From: Acidobacteria bacterium AB60
GTDB taxonomy: Bacteria > Acidobacteriota > Terriglobia > Terriglobales > Acidobacteriaceae
Reading direction: 5' to 3'
NCBI GenBank assembly: GCA_008682415.1
Contig: VANK01000002.1
Span: forward strand, 248,001-312,000
Length of the DNA stretch: 64,000 nt
The position numbers and the translations under genes were made by a program. Shown piece by piece: positions 52,875 to 62,225 of the stretch. Each line of letters opens with the position of its first letter. Position 1 is the first letter of the stretch. The notes beneath the pieces were generated by a model. That model was not told where the DNA came from. It saw nothing but the letters and a program-made list of their open reading frames with translations, and made no database searches.

Positions 52875-53624
52875 TCAATGAGCAGTCGCCGCTATCTGGT
52901 TTTCCGCGGCTCCCTTCTGAAGGGCCACCGCAAGGTCCTCAGGGTTAAAGCCGAATGGACCCGGCTTGCTCTTGTAGAGCACGCGTCCGCCAGGGGCGAT
53001 CAGATACAGGCGATCAGGCCAGCCGGTGTAGGCTGCCTCGACCTGATTGTCCAACGCATCCACGAGCGCCGGGAATCTGATACCGAGCTTGCGAACGCAC
53101 GCTCCGGCCACGCTGAATCGCTCGCCTTCATTTTTTGGACTGGCGAAGAGGACGTGGTCGCGAACGTTCGATTGCATCTCCCACACGTCAGTTGGATGCG
53201 CTTCAAGGATGTAGACAGCGTAGAACGAGACCTTGTCCTTGTACTGCTCGGCCAGTTTGTTCAGGGCGGGAACCTCCCGCCGAAATGGCGGTCAGGTATA
53301 GCTCCCGAAGACGAGAACGACGGGCTTGCCGGCCCAAAGAGACGCAAGCTGCACCGGAGTCTTCGTATCCAGGGTCTTGACCGCAAAGTCGGGAGCCTGA
53401 TCCCCGGGGTTTACGTGGCCAAACCGAGCCTGCGTCCACATCGTTTCGAATGGGAAGAGGAAGTACGCCGGCATGGGCATGTGCATCATCACGTGCCCGA
53501 AGACCTCGGGAGGCTGATGCATGGCCCAGTCAATATAGGCTACGAACGCCATCCAGGCCACGACGAGCACCCCGCCTATGCTCAGCGCCCACCGCCGGTT
53601 CGTCGGTTTCATTTTCAACCGCAT
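52875..53624 (-). CDS. Deiodinase-like selenoprotein (in-frame TGA = Sec)
   Basis: 249 codons are read through an in-frame TGA at 53292-53294. Before it: a membrane anchor (about 13-31) and the thioredoxin-fold start NPGDQAPDFAVKTLDTKTPV and VLVFGSYT; after it PPFRREVPALNKLAEQYKDK and VYILEAHPTDVW. SYT-U-PPFR is the active-site signature of iodothyronine deiodinase-like proteins, where Sec is the catalytic residue (U111). A 7-bp hairpin stands 10 nt after the TGA. selA, selB, selD and tRNA-Sec are adjacent. It is probably a membrane-tethered redoxin; bacterial homologues have no proven substrate. The start may be the ATG at 53612. Confidence 0.87.
53265..53281 (-). promoter_or_regulatory. Bacterial SECIS element of the deiodinase-like gene
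   Basis: On the minus strand, ten bases after the TGA, GGCGGGA-GGT-TCCCGCC forms a perfect 7-bp stem with a three-base loop starting GG. The distance from TGA to loop (17 nt) and G at the loop start fit the bacterial SECIS consensus recognised by SelB. Confidence 0.75.
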
Positions 53625-53640
53625 CGCTACCGGCCTCCTT

Positions 53641-54237
53641 TCATTTCGTCATCTCATTCAACTCGAGATAGCGCTGTGGCGGTACACCGAAAGCATCAGC
53701 CACGCGATTAAAGAACGCGAACATGGCAGTGATATAAACGGCTTCGGCGATCTGTGGCTCCGTCCAGCCCAATTCCCGCAAATTCTGCACATCATCGGCC
53801 GTGGTGCGATAAGCGGCCTCTGTTACCTTCCCAACATATTCGAGAAGAGCTCGCTCCGCAGGCGACAGGCCCGCCTCTTCAAGCTTGCCCTCAACCAGTC
53901 CCTGCACTGTTGTTTCATTGGCTCCCTGAACACGCAGGAAGTAGGCGTGCGAGTCCAGTCAATAGGGGCACCGATTCAGGTAGGAAACCCAGCTCGCGAT
54001 GGCTTCTTTCTGCCGCCGCGTAAGGTGCCCTTCTGAGAAATGAACCGTGTCGCCGAACCTGAGAACCTCCCGCAGGAAATCCGGGCGGTGACTGAAGCAC
54101 TTGAGAATCCCAGGAAGCTTTTGCCGGCCTGACTTGAGGCGCCACTCATCGTACACTGCGGCGACGTCACCAGTCGCATCGGCGTCCTCAATGATCTTGA
54201 TTTTGGTTTCAGGGTGAGGCTCGGCTTCGAACGACAT
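53641..54237 (-). CDS. AhpD-like selenoprotein with CxxU active site
   Basis: 198 residues are read through an in-frame TGA at 53959-53961. The carboxymuconolactone decarboxylase/AhpD fold is clear: HLTRRQKEAIASWVSYLNRC, then PY-U-LDSHAYFLR, with C90, U93 and H97 matching the CxxC-x3-H of AhpD-type peroxidase-related enzymes, and the second half ending in NRVADAFGVPPQRY. The Sec replaces the resolving/attacking Cys. A candidate downstream stem (CACGC/GCGTG, 53931-53949) is weaker than the SECIS of the neighbouring gene. The two selenoprotein genes lie 16 bp apart and form one operon. Confidence 0.87.
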
Positions 54238-54324
54238 GTGTTTGGCAGGACTATAGCATGTCCGCTAGAGGAGCAAACCATACTTTTGGTGGAGGTAAAC
54301 GATCTGGTCGGGTTGAAACTTGAG

Positions 54325-56250
54325 TCAGAGAACGATGCGGCGGTCGCCCTCTCTCCGAGTTATACGCTCGTAGTCCAGGTATTCAAGCAGAGGGATAGCG
54401 TATTTTCGACTGACGCCTGCAAGTTGCTTGAATTGTGAGACGTCAAGGCTCTGCCCTCGCATCCGCTGGATCTTGCCTTTCAAATTCAGGAGAGCGTCCT
54501 GATGCATGAAGAGAGAATCGCTACCCAGGCGCACCAGCTTCCTTTCACGAAGCAGGACGGTGACCAATTTTCGAAATTGTGTCAGGTCGATGGCCAGAGT
54601 GGATGCCAAATCGGCCGGCGTAGGCGCCTCGAGGCCAGCCAACTGATACGCGCGAGCGATCTGTGCGAGTTTGTTGTCATCGACCGATGAACGTGGTGGC
54701 GGGCCTTTCGCTGGGAGCAGGCGGTCCTCCACTACTCGCAACTTCTCACTTCGCTCAAGATACTCGATCGCTGCATCGGTAACCTCTGGCTTCAGAGCCG
54801 CCTTGCTCTTGAGAACGGATCGCTTAAATTCTCCGTGGGCGAACAGCTTCTCCAGTTCCTTCTGGACGAGGGCAGATGCCGTGATCATCGCCTCACGAGA
54901 CAAGAAGAGATCGCTTTTGAGTGAATGAATCTCTCCGCTCAAATGCATCTCCTGGAGACGATCTCTGACGAAGGCGACGGTGAAGCCGGTTTCTATGGAT
55001 AAATTTCGGCTGGTAGTCCCCTCCAGCCCTCGCCGCCCCACACGTAGTGAGAAGGTATTTTCCAGGGCTATATGCCTCATTTGCTCCAGCCAATCCTCAG
55101 TCGTCTTCTTCCTTAACCGCTGAATAGGGTGAGCGTCCAGGACACGGCCTCCTCCTATCGTTGAGATCGGTGAACCTTGTCGCAACACGAAGCGATCGCC
55201 AGGCAACAATACGACCGGGTGAGAAAGGCGCAGACGTGCCAGCCGATGACTCCCCGGCAAAATGGGTTGGTAGCCGTATAGGGAAACGTTCGCCATGCAC
55301 TCGGTTGCAAATGCGTGGAAGTGGGCGCGCATACCGTGCTTCAATGGGGGCGCGCTCTCCAGGAGGGCGATCTCCACGTCTACCGCATCCACAGCACTGA
55401 TCGTGTCTGGGGCCACGAGTGTGTCCCCTCGTTGCAAAAGATCGGCATCGACACGATTGAGATTTAGCGCGACGCGAGTTGGTGCTGTTGCACGCTCGGC
55501 AACTTGACCGTGCACCTGAATATTACGGACCTTGGCCAGTCGAGCCCCAGGTTCAACAATCAGTTCCTTCCCAATCGGCACGACGCCGGAGATCAGCGTA
55601 CCTGTGATGACTGTCCCAAACCCCTTTACCGCGAATGAACGATCGATAGGAAGCCGCAACAAAGACTCGCTTTTGGGGTGCGGCAGGCGTGCCGCCAGTT
55701 CGGTGAGCTGCTGTCGAATCTGATCCAGTCCCTCGCCCGTGAATGCGCTCACTGAGATGATCGGCTCGGTGGCGAGGAATGTGGAGGCGAGGAATTTGCT
55801 CACCGAAGATCGAGTCTCATTGAGCCTGCTCGCGTCAACCGCATCGATCTTGGAAAGCACCGTCAATCCATGTTGAACGCCCAGTAGTGAGCAGATTGCG
55901 AGGTGCTCTTCGGTCTGGGGCTTTACTCCTTCTTCGGCCGAGATGACCAATATCACAGCATCGATTCCGCCAGCGCCTGCCAGCATGTTGCGAACGAAGC
56001 GCGCATGCCCCGGAACATCAATAAAGCTTATCCGCAGCTGAGATCGGTCGTGATCTGGCAACACCAGGGATGCGAAGCCTAGATCGATAGTGATCCCACG
56101 CTTCTTTTCTTCGGGTAGACGATCAGTTTCGACTCCGGTGAGAGCACGGATGAGCGCGGTCTTGCCGTGATCGATATGCCCGGCCGTACCAACGACAAGC
56201 GTTTGTTGCGCCGCGTTCGGGCGCGCTTGATAGGGAAGAATATCAGCCAT
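54325..56250 (-). CDS. selB: Selenocysteine-specific elongation factor SelB
   Basis: The gene encodes 641 aa. The GTPase has G1 GHIDHGKT, G3 DVPGHARFV and G4 SKID. Domains II and III follow ([20 protein letters not shown]). The last ~270 residues are the tandem winged helices that bind SECIS RNA, ending [20 protein letters not shown]. It delivers Sec-tRNA to UGA codons that carry a SECIS. The ATG overlaps the end of selA by 8 bp, so the machinery is one operon, selD-selA-selB, followed downstream by the selenoprotein genes. Confidence 0.97.
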
Positions 56251-57724
56251 TTCGCCCCGGAGGAAGATTGCGGGGTTCTTCGGCAGCTATCCGGCGCAGC
56301 TCGCGCGCCAGGTAGGAATCTGAGGCAGGATCCACCGTGCGCAGGTCCAACAGCACCCGACCGCCCTCGATGCGGCCGATGACGGGAGGATCAAGACCGC
56401 GCAAGACGCGCACGAGTTCATCTGAATTGAGACCGCAGTGTTTCAAGGAGATAGCGCAACTCCTCACCCGCGCGGTGGGTGCAGTACCCCCTCCGAGCAC
56501 GCTCGCTACTTCAACCACCTCGGCTGTCAAATCCTGTTTCGAAACCTGTTCCGTGATCCCGAGACAACGACGGCCAATCTCTTCGACACTTGTGGCTAGC
56601 ATCTTCAAAACGGGCAATCCGCTCGCGTTCTCCAGGTACTGATGCAATGTCGCTTCGAGCGCAGCATAGCCAAGCTTATCAACCCGATAGGTACGGAAAA
56701 GAGGGTTCTGGCGGATTCGGTCAATCATGGGCTGCGTGCCTAAAAGGATCCCGCACTGGGGGCCGCCGAACAGTTTATCTCCGCTTGCCGCGATAAGATC
56801 ACACTGCGCTCGGATGCTGCTGACGATCGTAGACTCACCCGAGATTCCGTACGAATCAAGGCTCTCGACGAGGCCGGTGCCCTGATCGTGGAATACGGGC
56901 ACGTTGAGTCGCCTTCCGAGCTCCATCAGGCCTTCCAAGCCGGGCCGCTCAACAAACCCCTGCATGCTGAAATTGGATTGATGCACACGCAGGATCAGAG
57001 CTGAGTTTGGTGTGATCGCCCGCTCATAATCAGCAATGCGCGTGCGATTCGTGGTTCCCACTTCCCTGAGAACGGCTCCGGACGCCTGGAGAATCTCAGG
57101 AATTCGAAAGCCTCCCCCAATTTCGACGAGTTCACCCCGCGATACAAGAACTTCTTGCCCTTTGGCAAGCGCATGGAGTGCCAAGAAAGCGGCCGCAGCA
57201 CAATTATTAACAATGAGAGCGCGATACGTCTCGCCAAGACGACCAACTCCCGCCTTGGACTGCAGTACGTCTAGCAGCAGGGACTCTGTGTGAATGTCGC
57301 GCTTGCCGCGGGCTCCTGTTTCAAGATCGAATTCGAGGTTGCAGTACCCGCAGGCGATGTCAGTCACATGCTGCATGGCCTCGCGGCTAAGAAGTGCTCG
57401 CCCAAGATTGGTGTGAAGCAGAACTCCAGTTGCGTTGATGACGGGGCGGAGAGAATAGAGCCTTTGCTTCCGGAGTTCCTTCTCAATGGCAGAGGGAAGT
57501 TCGGCGATACGATTTTTCAGGCCGTCACGCGAGTGGTTGCCGAGTGCGATCTCCATTCGGAGTACTTCAAGGTGAGTGCGGCACGCCTGCACGATTTGGC
57601 CCCGTGCGTAAGATCGAAGCAAAATCTGTATCGGCTCAGCGATCAGCAATTCGTGGACAGAGGGCAGCTCACGGAAAAGATGCGCCAGGCTATCCGAGAC
57701 AGGTTCGGGAGCTTGCTCCATCAT
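56243..57724 (-). CDS. selA: L-seryl-tRNA(Sec) selenium transferase SelA
   Basis: About 493 aa from the ATG at 57724 with GGAG 7 bp upstream; a TTG at 57745 is possible and overlaps the selD stop. It converts seryl-tRNA(Sec) to selenocysteyl-tRNA(Sec) with selenophosphate, using PLP. Family sequence: INATGVLLHTNLGRALLS, NNCAAAAFLALHALAKGQEV, RVHQSNFSMQGF and the PLP lysine in SGDKLFGGPQCGI (about residue 317). Confidence 0.97.
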   Translation of the reverse strand: MMEQAPEPVSDSLAHLFRELPSVHELLIAEPIQILLRSYARGQIVQACRTHLEVLRMEIALGNHSRDGLKNRIAELPSAIEKELRKQRLYSLRPVINATGVLLHTNLGRALLSREAMQHVTDIACGYCNLEFDLETGARGKRDIHTESLLLDVLQSKAGVGRLGETYRALIVNNCAAAAFLALHALAKGQEVLVSRGELVEIGGGFRIPEILQASGAVLREVGTTNRTRIADYERAITPNSALILRVHQSNFSMQGFVERPGLEGLMELGRRLNVPVFHDQGTGLVESLDSYGISGESTIVSSIRAQCDLIAASGDKLFGGPQCGILLGTQPMIDRIRQNPLFRTYRVDKLGYAALEATLHQYLENASGLPVLKMLATSVEEIGRRCLGITEQVSKQDLTAEVVEVASVLGGGTAPTARVRSCAISLKHCGLNSDELVRVLRGLDPPVIGRIEGGRVLLDLRTVDPASDSYLARELRRIAAEEPRNLPPGRNG

Positions 57725-57741
57725 CGATGCGCTCCATCTGC

Positions 57742-58782
57742 TCAACGGAGGATAATCCGCGGTTCCCCATCGAGAACGGTTCCGATTCGGACCGCCCCTA
57801 ATCCGGCCTCGAGCAAAGAGGCAAGAATTGCAGTTGAAGCCGCCTCGGATACGCTAAGCAAAAGACCACCAGAAGTTTGAGGGTCGAACATAAGGGTATA
57901 GATCTCCTCGGAGATCTTGGCCGAGGGATCCACGCAGACGAGGCACTCGGCGTACTCTCGGTTCGATAGCAGGCCCCCCGGAATGGTTCCCAGGGCAATG
58001 GCATCGAGCGCGCCCGCCAAACGCGGCACCTTTTCCGTCTCGATCTCCAGGGCTACACGGCTGGCGAGCGCGACCTCGCGCCCATGACCCATAAGGCCGA
58101 AGCCGGTGATGTCGGTCATGCCGTGTACTCCCTCATGGGCAGAAGCGGCAGTCGCGGCCGTCAGATTGAGTGCAGTCATCGATTGGACAGCCGCATCAAC
58201 CCAGCTCTCTTGGGCCTTGCCGAGCTTTAGCGCCGTTGTGATCACTCCTGTCCCTAGAGGCTTGGTCAACAACAGAGCGTCGCCGGGACGGGCACCCGCG
58301 TTTGTATAGACTCTTTGGGGATCGATCAGGCCGGTGACCGCATAGCCGAACTTCATCTCCGGGTCCCGAACACTATGGCCCCCGACGATGGTACATCCGG
58401 CCTCCCTCATCTTTTCCAGTCCACCGCGCAGTGTCTGCCCCAGAACGTCCAGATCTCCGTCCTGGGGATAACAGACAATCGCGAGCGAAGTGAGGGGTCG
58501 GCCACCCATTGCATAAACATCGCTCAACGCATTCGCCGCCGCGATCTGGCCGAACGTAAACGGATCGTCCACCATGGGAGTAAAGAAATCAACGGTTTGG
58601 ACGACCGCGAGATGATCGCTGATTCGGTAGACGCCGGCGTCGTCGGACTGATCGAACCCCACCAGGAGATTTGGGTCGATTTGCTGCGGAAGCCGGTCTA
58701 GAACCGCCCGTAACGAACCTGGAGCAAGTTTGCTCGCGCATCCTCCAGCCTTCACGTGTTGCGTCAATCGCATAGAATTCAT
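57742..58782 (-). CDS. selD: Selenide, water dikinase (selenophosphate synthase) SelD
   Basis: The gene encodes 346 aa. It makes selenophosphate from selenide and ATP. The glycine-rich N-terminal catalytic segment GGCASKL gives Cys15 and Lys18, so this SelD uses Cys, not Sec. DDAGVYRISDHLAVVQTVDF, GGHSVRDPEMKFGYAVTGLI and DPQTSGGLLLSV are conserved. It is the first gene of the selDAB operon, divergent from tRNA-Sec 78 bp away. Confidence 0.97.
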   Translation of the reverse strand: MNSMRLTQHVKAGGCASKLAPGSLRAVLDRLPQQIDPNLLVGFDQSDDAGVYRISDHLAVVQTVDFFTPMVDDPFTFGQIAAANALSDVYAMGGRPLTSLAIVCYPQDGDLDVLGQTLRGGLEKMREAGCTIVGGHSVRDPEMKFGYAVTGLIDPQRVYTNAGARPGDALLLTKPLGTGVITTALKLGKAQESWVDAAVQSMTALNLTAATAASAHEGVHGMTDITGFGLMGHGREVALASRVALEIETEKVPRLAGALDAIALGTIPGGLLSNREYAECLVCVDPSAKISEEIYTLMFDPQTSGGLLLSVSEAASTAILASLLEAGLGAVRIGTVLDGEPRIILR

Positions 58783-58832
58783 CCGGCAACAGGCATTCGC
58801 TTTGCTCCCTCAGGTGAAGGCGAACGAATCCG

Positions 58833-58839
58833 TATTATA
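58833..58839. promoter_or_regulatory. Shared -10 region of selDAB and tRNA-Sec
   Basis: The sequence TATTATA here reads TATAAT on the minus strand (58839-58834, towards selD) and TATTAT on the plus strand (58833-58838, towards tRNA-Sec). Neither direction has a clear -35. The 78-bp gap allows only a compact bidirectional control region. Confidence 0.4.
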
Positions 58840-58860
58840 GAAGGAGGCGCCAAATTGGAT

Positions 58861-58955
58861 GGAAGTGCTTGGGCTCCGGTGATCCTCCCGGTCTTCAAAA
58901 CCGGCGGTCGTCCTTGACGGGCGACGGTGTGTTCGACTCACACGCACTTCCGCCA
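58861..58955 (+). tRNA. selC: Selenocysteine tRNA (TCA)
   Basis: 95 nt with an encoded CCA. The acceptor stem has 8 bp (GGAAGTGC/GCACTTCC) and the T stem 5 bp (GTGTG/CACAC), giving the 8+5 arrangement of bacterial tRNA-Sec. The anticodon arm is CCGGT-CTTCAAA-ACCGG with anticodon TCA, reading UGA. A long variable arm (GTCGTCC/GGGCGAC) and the D loop TCCGGTGA complete the match to E. coli selC. The discriminator is G. Confidence 0.97.
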
Positions 58956-59284
58956 GCCAGGTGGATGGGTTCAGAACCAGCGGCCGGCTGAGCTTCATCG
59001 TTATCTGGCTTCCGTCTCAGCCTTTTCCCGCAGCTGTCAGTTGAGGAAGGCTCATCGCAAGCCCACCGCACAGGCGCAAATCTGACCTGTAGGGCCGACG
59101 TTCTCAAGATCAGGCGCTGAGTTGAAGTGATCGAGTCTCCGGAGCGGGCTGGTGTCCACGCGAACGGGTTGGTGAGATGAGCGCTCTCCCGGTGCAACGT
59201 ACGATGTAGCGAACCGCCCGACCGCAAATCGCGAGCGGCGGTTGGAATCGAACCCGCCGCTCTTCCGTGTCAACTAGCCGCGGA
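58956..59284. other. Intergenic region with a tRNA-Val(GAC)-like fragment
   Basis: No gene is supported. On the minus strand around 59225-59275 the sequence reads TTGACACGGAAGAG followed by GGCGGGTTCGATTCC, which looks like the anticodon loop, variable region and T arm of tRNA-Val(GAC). The acceptor does not pair properly and the 5' half is absent, so it is a decayed fragment or chance. It ends where the truncated IS begins. Confidence 0.3.
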
Positions 59285-59485
59285 ATTGTAAACCAGGAGT
59301 GTGGCGTCAGTCAGGCAACGATCTACACATGGAAGGCCAAGTACGGTGGCGTGGATGTGAGCGAGGCACAGCGATTGCGATCGCTCGAGGATGAGAACTC
59401 GCGTTTGAAGCGCCTGGTAGCAGATCTGAGCCTGGACAAGGAGATGCTGAAGGCGGTGATCGCAAAAAACGGCCTCAGCTCGTAG
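59285..59485 (+). pseudogene. IS3-family OrfA, 5'-truncated
   Basis: The C-terminal ~65 residues of OrfA are open: ECGVSQATIYTWKAKYGGVD (end of the helix-turn-helix) then a leucine-zipper region RLRSLEDENSRLKRLVADLS. A full OrfA of this group has about 87 residues; the first ~22 are missing with the left end of the element. Confidence 0.8.
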
Positions 59486-59519
59486 ACCGAAGGACGGATG
59501 CTCACTGGCTTTGTACACA

Positions 59520-59835
59520 GTATGAGGCCAGTGAGCGCCGGGTATGCGGGCTGCTGTCGATTGCGGTTTCGAGTTATCGGTATCAATCGCGGCGATCGGA
59601 TGAGTCGCTGCGCGAGAAGCTGACGCGGCTTGCCAGAGAGAAGCCGCTCTATGGATATCGGAGGTTGCAGGTGCTGGTAGAGCGTGAGGGCGAGCGAGTG
59701 AACCATAAGCGATTGTGGCGGGTGTATCGCGAAGCGGGCTTGTGCCTGAAGCGGAAGAAGCGCCGGCACTGCATACGCATCGGCTTGCCGCGACCGTACT
59801 GACGGGCGCCAACCAGGAGTGGGCACTCGATTTCG
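59520..59835 (+). pseudogene. IS3-family OrfB (transposase), 5' fragment
   Basis: In frame, SERRVCGLLSIAVSSYRYQS, REKPLYGYRRLQVLVERE and RLWRVYREAGLCLKRKKR are the N-terminal and linker part of OrfB. A frameshift follows at about 59800, after which ANQEWALDF, the start of the integrase core, is read in another frame. The intron begins immediately after this. Confidence 0.8.
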
Positions 59836-59862
59836 GAGCGCCATGAGCACATCCGACTCAGC

Positions 59863-60893
59863 ATGTGTCCGAAGGTGAAGGCTGAAGATGGCCGACGCCA
59901 GAAGACGCCCTATCACTGGGTCATCGAAGGGGACATCAAGGGCTGTTTCGACAACATCGATCATCACCAGCTGATGGAGCGGGTTCGCGCCCGCGTCACC
60001 GACGGGAAAATGACGAAGTTGATTACGCAGTTCCTGAAGGCCGGAGTTCTGGCAGACGGCTTTTTGCTGCCAACAGACAAAGGCATTCCACAAGGTGGTG
60101 TGATCTCACCGTTGCTTGCAAACATCGCCCTCGGCGTTATCGAGGAACAATACGAGCGATGGACACATCATCGTCGAAAGATCCAGGCCCGTCGCAAGAG
60201 CGATGCTCAAACGGCGGCGATGTGGGCACGCACAACTGATCGCAATGCTGGACGGCCGGTGTTCTTCCCGATACGATATGCAGATGACTTCCTGGTCCTC
60301 GTCTCAGGAACTCGTGAGCAGGCTGAACAGGAAGGGCCGAGCTCGCAAGATACCTGAACGATACCATGGGGTTGGAGCTATCCATCGAGAAGACGCGAGT
60401 CTCCGATCTGAAGGAGGGGTTTCAATTCCTCAGTCAGCGCGTGCGCTACAAGTGGCATGGCCGCTTCGGCTATATGCCGAGGATCGAGATCCCGCCCAGT
60501 AAACGAGCGGACCTTCGGCACCGAGTGAAGCAGTTGACCGCTCGCAACACAACACACTGGTCACTGCCTCAACTTCTCCAGCGACTCAATCCTCTTCTGC
60601 GAGGATGGGGAAACTACTATCGCTTCTGCACCGGCGCTAGCCGCCAGTTCTCAACGCTCGACTTCTATGTCGGCGATTGCATCTGGCGGTGGCTGATGAA
60701 GAAGCATAAGCATCTCCATCGCAAGCGGACTCGGTTAGTACGAGTGCCGAGTCTTCTTCGTCCGACACGAAAAGTCTGGCGGGAAGGACGAACAGAACAG
60801 TTCCTTCTCTCCATGCTCCGCGTCGAGCGCTTTCGCAGAGGTTGGATGCGCACACCTGCATACATCTGTGTTCCCGGAGAGCCGGATGCATAA
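59863..60893 (+). pseudogene. Group II intron reverse transcriptase/maturase, truncated and frameshifted
   Basis: The first frame (59863-60357) reads GDIKGCFDNIDHHQLMERVR, KGIPQGGVISPLLANIAL and IRYADDFLVLVSG, the RT palm with YADD. It runs off frame at about 60330, where one A appears lost. The second frame (60366-60893) continues MGLELSIEKTRVSDLKEGFQ and the maturase region LNPLLRGWGNYYRFCTGAS. RT0-RT2 are absent at the N-terminus. Not functional as read. Confidence 0.85.
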
Positions 60894-60914
60894 CGAAAGG
60901 TGCATGTCCGGTTC
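60879..60914 (+). ncRNA. Group II intron domain V
   Basis: The stem-loop starts GAGCCGGATGC, turns at a CGAAAGG tetraloop-like segment, and closes with GTCCGGTTC, matching the domain V consensus GAGCCG...GAAA...CGGTTC. Domain VI and the 3' end follow within 61 nt. Confidence 0.8.
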
Positions 60915-60975
60915 GGAGGGCGGGCATCAGAGTCCAACGACAGAAATGTCGCACGGCGCTGATGCTCGACCCTAC

Positions 60976-61513
60976 CTCACGACGTGCTGGCTGCTGGCCG
61001 CAACATCCGCGTGCTGAGCGTCGTTGATGCCTTCACGCGAGAGTGTCTGGCGCTTGAGGTGGACACGGGCTTCGCCAGCCGACGCGTGACGCGCGTGTTG
61101 GATGAGATCGTCAGCCGGCGAGAACGGCCGCAAGCCATTCGCTGTGACAATGGCCCGGAGCTGACCAGTCGCCACTTTCTGGCATGGGCTTTGGATTCGA
61201 AGATCGAGCTGCGCCACATTCAGCCTGGCAAGCCAACTCAGAATGCCCACGTGGAAAGTTTCCATGGCCGCTTGCGAGAGAGGAGTGCCTGCGAGTCAGC
61301 TGGTTCATGAACCTGTTCGATGCACGAAGGAAAGTCTCTGACTGGAAGCTCGAGTATAAAGAACAACGGCCACACAGCAGCCTCGGCTACAAAACACCTG
61401 CCGAGTTTGCGCGTGCGGCACTAACCCTGAGCTATGGAAAAGACGCGGGCTCCGCCCACGTTGAAAACGCCCCTGGCGTTTTCAACTTTCCCACAGCTCC
61501 GGCTGCGGGGTAA
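60976..61513 (+). pseudogene. IS3-family OrfB (transposase), 3' fragment
   Basis: The integrase core resumes after the intron: DVLAAGRNIRVLSVVDAFTR, then IRCDNGPELTSRHFLAWALD (second Asp), and NAHVESFHGRLRE (Glu of the DDE triad). A frameshift near 61285 follows; the last part SWFMNLFDARRKVSDWKLEY and EQRPHSSLGYKTPAEFA is in another frame. The first Asp of DDE lies in VVDAF. Confidence 0.85.
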
Positions 61514-61523
61514 ATTTACTGGA

Positions 61524-62225
61524 TCACCTGTACGGAGACAGGGGCAGGTCATTACGACCGAGTGCGCGGATGTGATTCGATTTCGCCCATCCTAAATCGA
61601 CACGCGTGCATTCAAGCGCGGCGACTTCAAATCCCGCAGCCTCAAGAAGAGCTGATACGGACTGAGGAAAATAGAAGTTGATATGTTCGTGGATGCCGAT
61701 CTGTAGGCTTGATGTGCCTTGCACCCAGTCTTTGCGCTGTTGGTCCGAGACTTCCTGTGGGGTCTCAATGTAAAGACAACCACCATCCGCCACGTAGGAG
61801 CGCAATTTAGTAATAAGTTTCAACGGATCTGGCAGGTGCTCTACCACGTGTGCTAACAGCACCAGAGGATATACGCCCAATTCCGATTCTTCGTGCTCAG
61901 GCATGTGCAGTTCAATATGAATCGCGCCGCTACTGGGTGCCTGCGCGTCCACCGCTTCGTCGCCCAAACCTGGTGACGCTTCGACATCGGCAGAGATCGT
62001 CACCGGCAACAAAGCTGTTGGTCTGGTGCTTGCATCGGCCAACTGGCCTCGCTCGAATAGGCGACGCCACTTGAACACCCGGTTCGCGTTCACATCATGT
62101 GCCCGGGCAATCTCGGCTACGCTTGCACCTGGCTTCATCGTCAACTGCACGATCTCGAGCTTCTCTGAAGCCGTTCGCCTTTTCCTGCCACGCTGCCGTG
62201 AACCCGCAACCTCTGCATGTGTCAT
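61524..62225 (-). pseudogene. Chimeric ORF: IS66 TnpA start, methyltransferase fragment, IS3 end
   Basis: This 233-codon ORF is assembled from three sources. Residues 1-106 are IS66-family TnpA (EKLEIVQLTMKPGASVAEIA, VFKWRRLFERGQL, GAIHIEL). Residues about 107-225 are the C-terminal half of a class I SAM-dependent methyltransferase (LLAHVVEHLPDPLKLITKLR; LYIETPQE; HINFYFPQSVSALLEAAGFE). The last eight residues, DLPLSPYR, are read from the IS3 inverted repeat. The methyltransferase lacks its SAM-binding first half, so it should be inactive. It was probably once a neighbour of the FkbM gene in a glycan or polyketide-type cluster. Confidence 0.8.

Follow-up and report, generated by a model that had tools for sequence, protein, structure and literature searches.

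Does a cluster of genes in which two reading frames are interrupted by a TGA codon encode a complete selenocysteine (Sec) decoding system together with its own client selenoproteins, and has it been inherited in place or moved as a unit? The question is raised by a block of genes in a stretch of 64,000 nucleotides (nt) from Acidobacteria bacterium AB60 (contig VANK01000002.1, positions 248,001 to 312,000), which we call the window. Judged by its sequence, the block is in all likelihood a complete Sec-decoding operon (selD-selA-selB, with selC divergent) that carries two selenoprotein genes downstream of selB. These are an AhpD/CMD-type gene (CMD) and a deiodinase-like gene (DI). G and L numbers designate the genomes and loci compared, G000 being the genome of the window. 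The features are:

57742..58782, minus strand: selD, selenide water dikinase, Cys form (TIGR00476, 372.8 bits, cut-off 125; PF00586/PF02769)
56243..57745, minus strand: selA, L-seryl-tRNA(Sec) selenium transferase (TIGR00474, 491.2 bits, cut-off 267.9)
54325..56250, minus strand: selB, Sec-specific elongation factor (TIGR00475, 371.6 bits, cut-off 242.25)
53641..54237, minus strand: CMD, predicted AhpD/CMD-type selenoprotein (PF02627, 56.2 bits, cut-off 23; TIGR01926, 100.2 bits, cut-off 81.8)
53922..53941, minus strand: candidate Sec insertion sequence (SECIS) of CMD, CTTCCTG[CGTGTT]CAGGGAG, 7-bp stem, apical loop 24 nt past the TGA
52875..53624, minus strand: DI, predicted deiodinase-like selenoprotein (PF00837, 102.9 bits, cut-off 27)
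53265..53281, minus strand: SECIS of DI, GGCGGGA[GGT]TCCCGCC, 7-bp stem, apical loop 17 nt past the TGA
58861..58955, plus strand: tRNA-Sec (selC), anticodon TCA (ARAGORN; Rfam RF01852, 69.1 bits, gathering threshold 47)

Layout of the block

Profile and tRNA searches place selDAB, the tRNA-Sec and the two TGA-containing clients at exactly the coordinates given in an earlier note on this DNA. SelA, SelB and SelD pass the NCBIfam equivalog cut-offs and the tRNA passes that of RF01852, so the Sec-decoding trait is complete within the window. SelB has the C-terminal winged helix (PF09107, 63.5 bits). SelD, with the motif GGCASK, is the Cys form and not itself a selenoprotein. The order on the minus strand is selD, selA, selB, CMD and DI; selA shares 4 nt with selD and 8 nt with selB, and the distance is 87 nt from selB to CMD and 16 nt from CMD to DI. 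The gene of the large helicase Lhr begins on the same strand 43 nt past DI. The note's identification of the tRNA-Sec is borne out by its Rfam score, with the refinement that the gene lies on the strand opposite to the operon, divergent from selD and 78 nt from it. It encodes its CCA end and, as read by eye from the sequence, has an 8-bp acceptor stem and a 5-bp T stem. The five minus-strand genes are presumably co-transcribed. A scan for consensus promoters and terminators was discarded, its counts lying near those of shuffled sequences.

Each client contains a single internal TGA, at codon 93 of CMD (53959-53961, motif CPYUxxxH) and at codon 111 of DI (53292-53294, motif GSYTUPPF); in DI, an N-terminal helix precedes a thioredoxin fold. 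As the note had foreseen, open reading frame (ORF) calling cuts both clients in two.

Conservation of the in-frame TGA codons

The TGAs stand at known Sec positions, as had been proposed: that of DI aligns with the catalytic Sec/Cys of Dio2/Dio3 and that of CMD with the second Cys of the AhpD CxxC motif. Because of this alignment, and because they are kept in orthologues, they are not due to chance. Both genes thus show what marks a bacterial selenoprotein gene, an in-frame TGA at a conserved redox position that is occupied by Cys or Sec in homologues.

Within a set of 119 genomes, DI exceeds the cut-off in 20 (G000 included), all of which contain a match with exactly one TGA; G059 has a second DI fragment without TGA. 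A partly overlapping set of named loci was restricted to the best 80 of 457 by similarity, which favours near relatives, while one of its two search patterns demanded Cys codons at the Sec site and so favours Cys forms. TGA occupies the aligned codon in 79 of these best 80 loci. The remaining one (L136, Acidobacteria bacterium M_DeepCast_100m_m2_149) has GGA at this codon and an intact SECIS hairpin with one G-U pair; it looks as if the GGA were a recent change of TGA or a sequencing error. Across the phylum, 30 of 396 genomes (G000 included) pass the DI cut-off and 23 have at least one TGA match, some with non-TGA copies too; the 16 top-scoring DI places all have TGA. For CMD, TGA is present in 11 of the 11 near orthologues examined, counting that of the window. 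In G061, the twelfth genome of the genus with DI, the CMD orthologue is 84% identical, contains the TGA and lies on a separate contig. From these alignments, both client TGAs are very probably decoded as Sec.

SECIS hairpins

The bacterial SECIS model, as given in excerpts of a 2026 review (PMC13188914), has a stem of 4-16 bp, a loop of 3-9 nt with a G within its first two positions, a distance of 16-37 nt from the UGA to the loop and a minimum free energy of at most -7.5 kcal/mol. The DI hairpin fits this model (loop GGT, 7 bp, 17 nt, -12.2 kcal/mol when folded alone), and so does that of CMD (loop CGTGTT, 7 bp, 24 nt), which folded alone reaches -7.5 kcal/mol, exactly the limit.

Covariation in DI was analysed in 85 distinct sequences, i.e. 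100 loci minus duplicates, L136 with its GGA and L099, which contains Ns. In the 7-bp helix, 86.1% of the cells are paired, versus 72.3% in shuffles, and 51 cells are changed on both sides, versus 10.3. Synonymous diversity was calculated for 19 close, hand-chosen DI orthologues and 17 CMD orthologues. Synonymous differences in DI are zero at codons +4 to +8 relative to the TGA, and the sliding window that starts at +3 is the lowest of 181. CMD has none at +6 to +8 and +10 to +12, inside the hairpin, +9 being the loop codon, and the two lowest windows begin at +4 and +6. The same stem is present in the near CMD orthologues compared.

Active sites and possible function

The structure model of DI (mean predicted local distance difference test score, pLDDT, 83.4) consists of an N-terminal helix, residues 7-35, and a thioredoxin fold. 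In a Foldseek search, the top match is mouse DIO2 (9h48; E-value 1.2e-11, TM-score on target 0.82) and the second DIO3 (4tr3; 3.2e-10, 0.80). By profile and by fold, DI thus belongs to the PF00837 deiodinase family; it scores 193.9 bits, versus a cut-off of 250, against the NCBIfam deiodinase family protein model NF038285, the best stretch covering model positions 179-340 of 347. The residues that correspond to Ser127, Thr129, Sec130, Tyr157, Glu160 and His162 of Dio2 are invariant in 15 of 15 aligned sequences (residue roles in Dio2 as described in excerpts of PMC11592359). Trp167, in Dio2 numbering, is kept in 13 of the 15, and Phe224 is replaced by Pro, as in Dio1. Cys 176 of DI is conserved in 14 of 15 aligned sequences. 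Five basic residues lie within the first 11, for which reason the DI domain is probably located outside the cytoplasm, on the outer side of the membrane.

CMD passes the cut-off of the AhpD-like, peroxidase-related family TIGR01926. Its CPYUxxxH motif corresponds to the active site of AhpD, with Sec replacing the second Cys of the CxxC; in AhpD, this second Cys is the peroxidatic one.

Family membership, the conserved active-site residues, the retained TGAs, the constraint on the SECIS hairpins and the gene order are all established by the sequences themselves. In the mechanism that we propose, SelA, SelD and the tRNA-Sec would produce Sec-tRNA, and SelB, made from the same operon, would bind the hairpin just past each internal UGA and insert Sec. 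Decoding of UGA in the cell would yield an AhpD-type protein with Sec in place of the second CxxC Cys, and a membrane-anchored thioredoxin-fold protein of the deiodinase family with Sec in TUPPF. The pair may act as a selenol peroxidase/reductase couple; our best guess is that its substrates would be peroxides or disulfides, and dehalogenation by DI is possible. The genome would use Sec elsewhere too, in FdhA and probably in a peroxiredoxin (Prx).

Several observations weigh against the interpretation of the block as a Sec operon with two hairpin-dependent clients. Seven of the 30 phylum genomes with DI hold only non-TGA DI over the cut-off. A simple scan of the minus strand finds no promoter. 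Two of the five measures for the DI helix do not stand out from shuffles, namely pairs changed on both sides (6 versus 4.3, equalled by 50 of 500 shuffles) and further pair types (12 versus 10.9, equalled by 165 of 500). If the partner strand is slid by +1, the covariation score is nearly the same (0.303 versus 0.309) and there are more double-changed cells (60 versus 51), although merely 55.6% of the cells then pair. The outermost two pairs fail in 29 and 30 of the 85 sequences. The CMD hairpin is too invariant for covariation testing, and since codons -1, +1 and +2 of CMD likewise show almost no synonymous change (0.0, 0.0 and 0.12), its low-synonymous stretch coincides less closely with the hairpin. 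The AlphaFold2 model of CMD is poor (pLDDT 55.9) and was not used. Finally, the relay residue His182 of Dio2 is absent from DI, where Pro163 is aligned with it; the relay being incomplete, we do not file DI as a thyroid-hormone deiodinase.

Distribution and gene order

In the genus of the window genome (71 genomes), DI is over the cut-off in 12 and selB in 11: 10 genomes have both, two DI only, one selB only and 58 neither. G052, with a DI match below the cut-off, was scored as lacking DI. The association between selB and DI has a Fisher p of 1.5e-9, a value without correction for relatedness. The earlier note had named TGA-bearing homologues in relatives without Sec machinery as one sign against Sec decoding. 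In the genus, only the two DI-only genomes could be such cases, and they do not refute it: their completeness is 74-75%, and in G040 a partial selB adjoins CMD-DI. Beyond the genus, selB is widespread (41 of the 48 other genomes searched). At the level of the phylum it is over the cut-off in 21 of 22 further genomes with TGA-DI, the other having a damaged selB match below it; all seven genomes with only non-TGA DI over the cut-off also have selB, so its presence does not discriminate there. It is for these two reasons that the pattern within the genus carries the weight.

A conserved gene order, for which the note had proposed to look, is seen in most, not all, DI-bearing genomes of the genus. 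DI is located downstream of selB in nine of the 12, with CMD in between except in G061, and is not so placed in G013, G042 and G055. CMD is the direct neighbour of DI in 11 of the 12, G061 again being the exception. The tRNA-Sec, for which a threshold of at least 56 bits, applied to the genus, was chosen by us from a gap in the scores, is divergent beside selD in eight of the 10 genus genomes with both placed and lies elsewhere in G001 and G008. Among the best 80 named loci, selB, CMD and DI are consecutive in 11, including those of Acidicapsa dinghuensis and Occallatibacter savannae. In Edaphobacter lichenicola, selDAB, tRNA-Sec and fdhA are clustered with a DI that is encoded on the strand opposite to selDAB. 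These three named carriers are described species, which makes the function of bacterial deiodinase-like selenoproteins experimentally approachable.

Another, distant case in which DI adjoins sel genes is that of a Planctomycetota metagenome-assembled genome (L152, 8996-10684), where selD is directly followed by a TGA-DI and selA and selB are divergent. In two other loci, DI is paired with a different, distant CMD gene: a Cys form upstream in L080 (9394-10723) and a TGA form downstream in L125 (513-1825). The pairing may therefore have arisen more than once, and these cases hint at a functional link between DI and CMD. Outside the sel-linked loci, one neighbour family, TonB-dependent-receptor-like by eye, accompanies DI in 10 loci; the other families occur in at most five loci each, antisense frames of the block not counted. 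G333, G349 and G428 (family f70) have six, four and three DI matches, respectively, some containing TGA and some that might be fragments of a single gene; deiodinase-like proteins may have expanded there. Two selB genes over the cut-off are present in G090 (C197:6211-8094 and C17:10596-12518), and G089 has two tRNA-Sec-like genes (C2:1112064 and 1115713; 60.9 and 66.2 bits) that are 3.6 kb apart.

Phylogenies of clients and machinery

Identity to the window proteins in the other genomes of the genus is 77-85% for CMD, 67-78% for DI, 61-72% for SelD, 48-60% for SelA and 46-57% for SelB. The two clients are more conserved than the genes for their decoding, and clients and machinery are separable in evolution. 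The SelB and DI trees have four groups in common: G000/G050/G013/Acidicapsa, G001 with G008, G002/G007/G059 and G061/IncMAG36/Umea. An rpoB tree also recovers G001 with G008, as well as G042 with G013. In the SelB and SelD trees, G055, G063 and Edaphobacter form one group (SH-like approximate likelihood ratio support, SH-aLRT, 100 and 96), whereas the DI tree places G055 with G001/G008 and then G002/G007/G059, and Edaphobacter with KBS83, G061 and IncMAG36. Approximately unbiased (AU) tests, for groups picked after the trees had been inspected, reject a clade of Edaphobacter and G055 for DI (p 4e-4). For SelB, they reject the DI groupings of G055 (p 3e-9) and of Edaphobacter (p 7e-9 if KBS83 is included, lower if it is not). 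In G013, the block is split and the trees do not conflict; separation of the genes is thus no proof of exchange by itself.

The conflict shows that clients and machinery have recombined in two genomes, G055 and Edaphobacter lichenicola; it does not show movement of the whole block. G063 has no DI, and a Sec-encoding fdhA directly follows its selB; fdhA is near the sel genes in Edaphobacter and far from selB in G055. Our reading is that in G055 and Edaphobacter the machinery was replaced by an fdhA-associated selDAB lineage, or the clients were gained separately, so that one or the other happened in at least two lineages. The most plausible view of the block is that of an inherited operon, in some relatives of which the Sec genes were replaced or CMD and DI arrived independently, and not that of a proven mobile unit.

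A wider proposal, which goes furthest beyond the sequences and which we consider quite unlikely to be right as a whole, is that in soil Acidobacteria CMD and DI would jointly make up a single pathway that depends on selenium. Outside the cell, a membrane-anchored DI-type selenoenzyme would, with its AhpD-type partner, perhaps dehalogenate natural halogenated phenolics or reduce peroxides, and the pair would remain stable while the machinery swaps between CMD-DI-linked and fdhA-linked selDAB lineages.

Alternative explanations

The earlier note had suggested a transferable unit, that is, a Sec island in which machinery and clients move horizontally as one. The patchy presence of the system (selB in 11 of 71 genus genomes) would suit this, as would the rpoB tree, in which Sec-negative genomes such as G005 and G019 adjoin Sec-positive ones; excerpts of two papers provide a precedent in the horizontal transfer of selABC with fdhA (PMC1794560, PMC5029168). 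The flanks of the block also differ among the genus genomes, with no match above 37% identity apart from G001/G008. However, the control gene, Lhr, which is 74-81% identical in five genomes and 66-69% identical to the sixth, has no neighbour matched above 33% among the six. The neighbours of the control being equally scrambled, differing flanks are not evidence of mobility, and we rejected the flank comparison for this purpose. In most genomes, moreover, SelB and DI trees give the same groups, and rpoB also pairs G001 with G008 and G042 with G013, a pattern compatible with vertical inheritance and loss; strongly supported conflicts are confined to G055 and Edaphobacter, in which DI lies elsewhere than downstream of selB. 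We therefore regard a mobile island as unproven and unlikely, while far from negligible.

Remains of insertion sequences and of a group II intron lie just past the tRNA-Sec, which would also favour mobility; they are not tied to any border repeat. This debris (59270-62225) comprises fragments of reverse transcriptase and maturase, the end of a group II intron (60877-60975), part of an integrase core and a helix-turn-helix transposase in one frame with a methyltransferase-like stretch. Within the window, there is no second copy of the tRNA-Sec 3' end, and no long repeats flank the block, only short, diverged, chance-like pairs.

A different objection concerns the reason for keeping the machinery, which the note had ascribed to the two redox enzymes. 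A search for further selenoproteins, as the note had proposed, covered four Pfam families (PF00837, PF02627, PF04879 and PF00578) and is not exhaustive. It finds a Sec FdhA (ARIUHS motif, SECIS-like hairpin; TIGR01553, 996.6 bits, cut-off 814.2) at 456.8 kb of G000:C22 (L157), and at 513.9 kb (L158) a Prx with FTGGUTKE (PF00578, 121.1 bits, cut-off 26). The latter is called probable because it passes no NCBIfam cut-off and the folded stretch downstream is less clear. Both lie on the contig of the window, outside the window and 150-210 kb from the block. CMD and DI are thus not the only clients in this genome, an idea that we had to reject, and they need not explain the retention of the machinery. 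A PF04879 place in G008 (C2), a short frame that is noise-like past the stop, was not counted as a selenoprotein. For Occallatibacter riparius DSM 25168, the excerpted test-set table of deep-Sep lists 3 known selenoprotein genes (PMC12013277).

One might go further and suppose that CMD and DI are incidental passengers and that the machinery is retained because of formate dehydrogenase, its usual client in bacteria. The window genome, G001, G008, G055 and G063 each have an FdhA with ARIUHS and a SECIS-like hairpin, and the fdhA positions after selB in G063 and beside selDAB and DI in Edaphobacter lichenicola point the same way. G055 has TGA clients of all three kinds, CMD, DI and FdhA. In G050 (four families searched) and G002 (three), however, TGA was seen only in CMD and DI, and the better conservation of both within the genus suggests strong selection on them; we judge the passenger explanation very unlikely.

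That the TGAs stem from misassembly, from recent nonsense mutation or from programmed termination, the clients being pseudogenes or truncated proteins, is barely conceivable: ORF finders do break both genes apart and the GGA of L136 shows that the base can vary, but the TGA is identical across tens of independent genomes, coding conservation extends beyond it, and the hairpins show constraint and compensatory change.

Comparison with known systems

A Sec operon with two clients has partial counterparts. Bacterial deiodinase-like (PF00837) selenoproteins have been reported from the Sargasso Sea (PMC1088965) and are listed in the 2026 review (PMC13188914, both in excerpt). DI resembles them in its Pfam family, its catalytic Sec and a bacterial SECIS just downstream. 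Where the excerpted review gives a UxxC motif, DI has UPPF and, like Dio2/Dio3, lacks a Cys at +3; the nearest solved structures are the animal enzymes Dio2 and Dio3. It also differs from those reported earlier in being operon-linked with selB and an AhpD-type selenoprotein. CMD is like other AhpD-like/CMD selenoproteins (TIGR01926, PF02627) in its CxxU motif, the His that follows and a score over the TIGR01926 cut-off, and unlike them in forming a recurrent two-selenoprotein pair with DI; the pair named in the excerpts of the review is a Prx-like/AhpD-like one instead.

Clustering of Sec machinery is likewise reported for the selDABC cluster of Eubacterium acidaminophilum. The selABC+fdhA clusters of Proteobacteria join the machinery to a client gene (PMC1794560 and PMC5029168, in excerpt), as here, but the clients of the present block are two thiol-type redox enzymes and not FdhA, whereas in G063 the slot after selB holds fdhA. 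In searches of the open-licence literature, we recognised no description of a selDAB+CMD+DI block or of DI operons of Acidobacteria. Both protein families and the linkage of Sec machinery to client genes are already published; what appears new is the pairing of CMD and DI in a selDAB operon, recurrent in Acidobacteriaceae, and the evolution of this arrangement.

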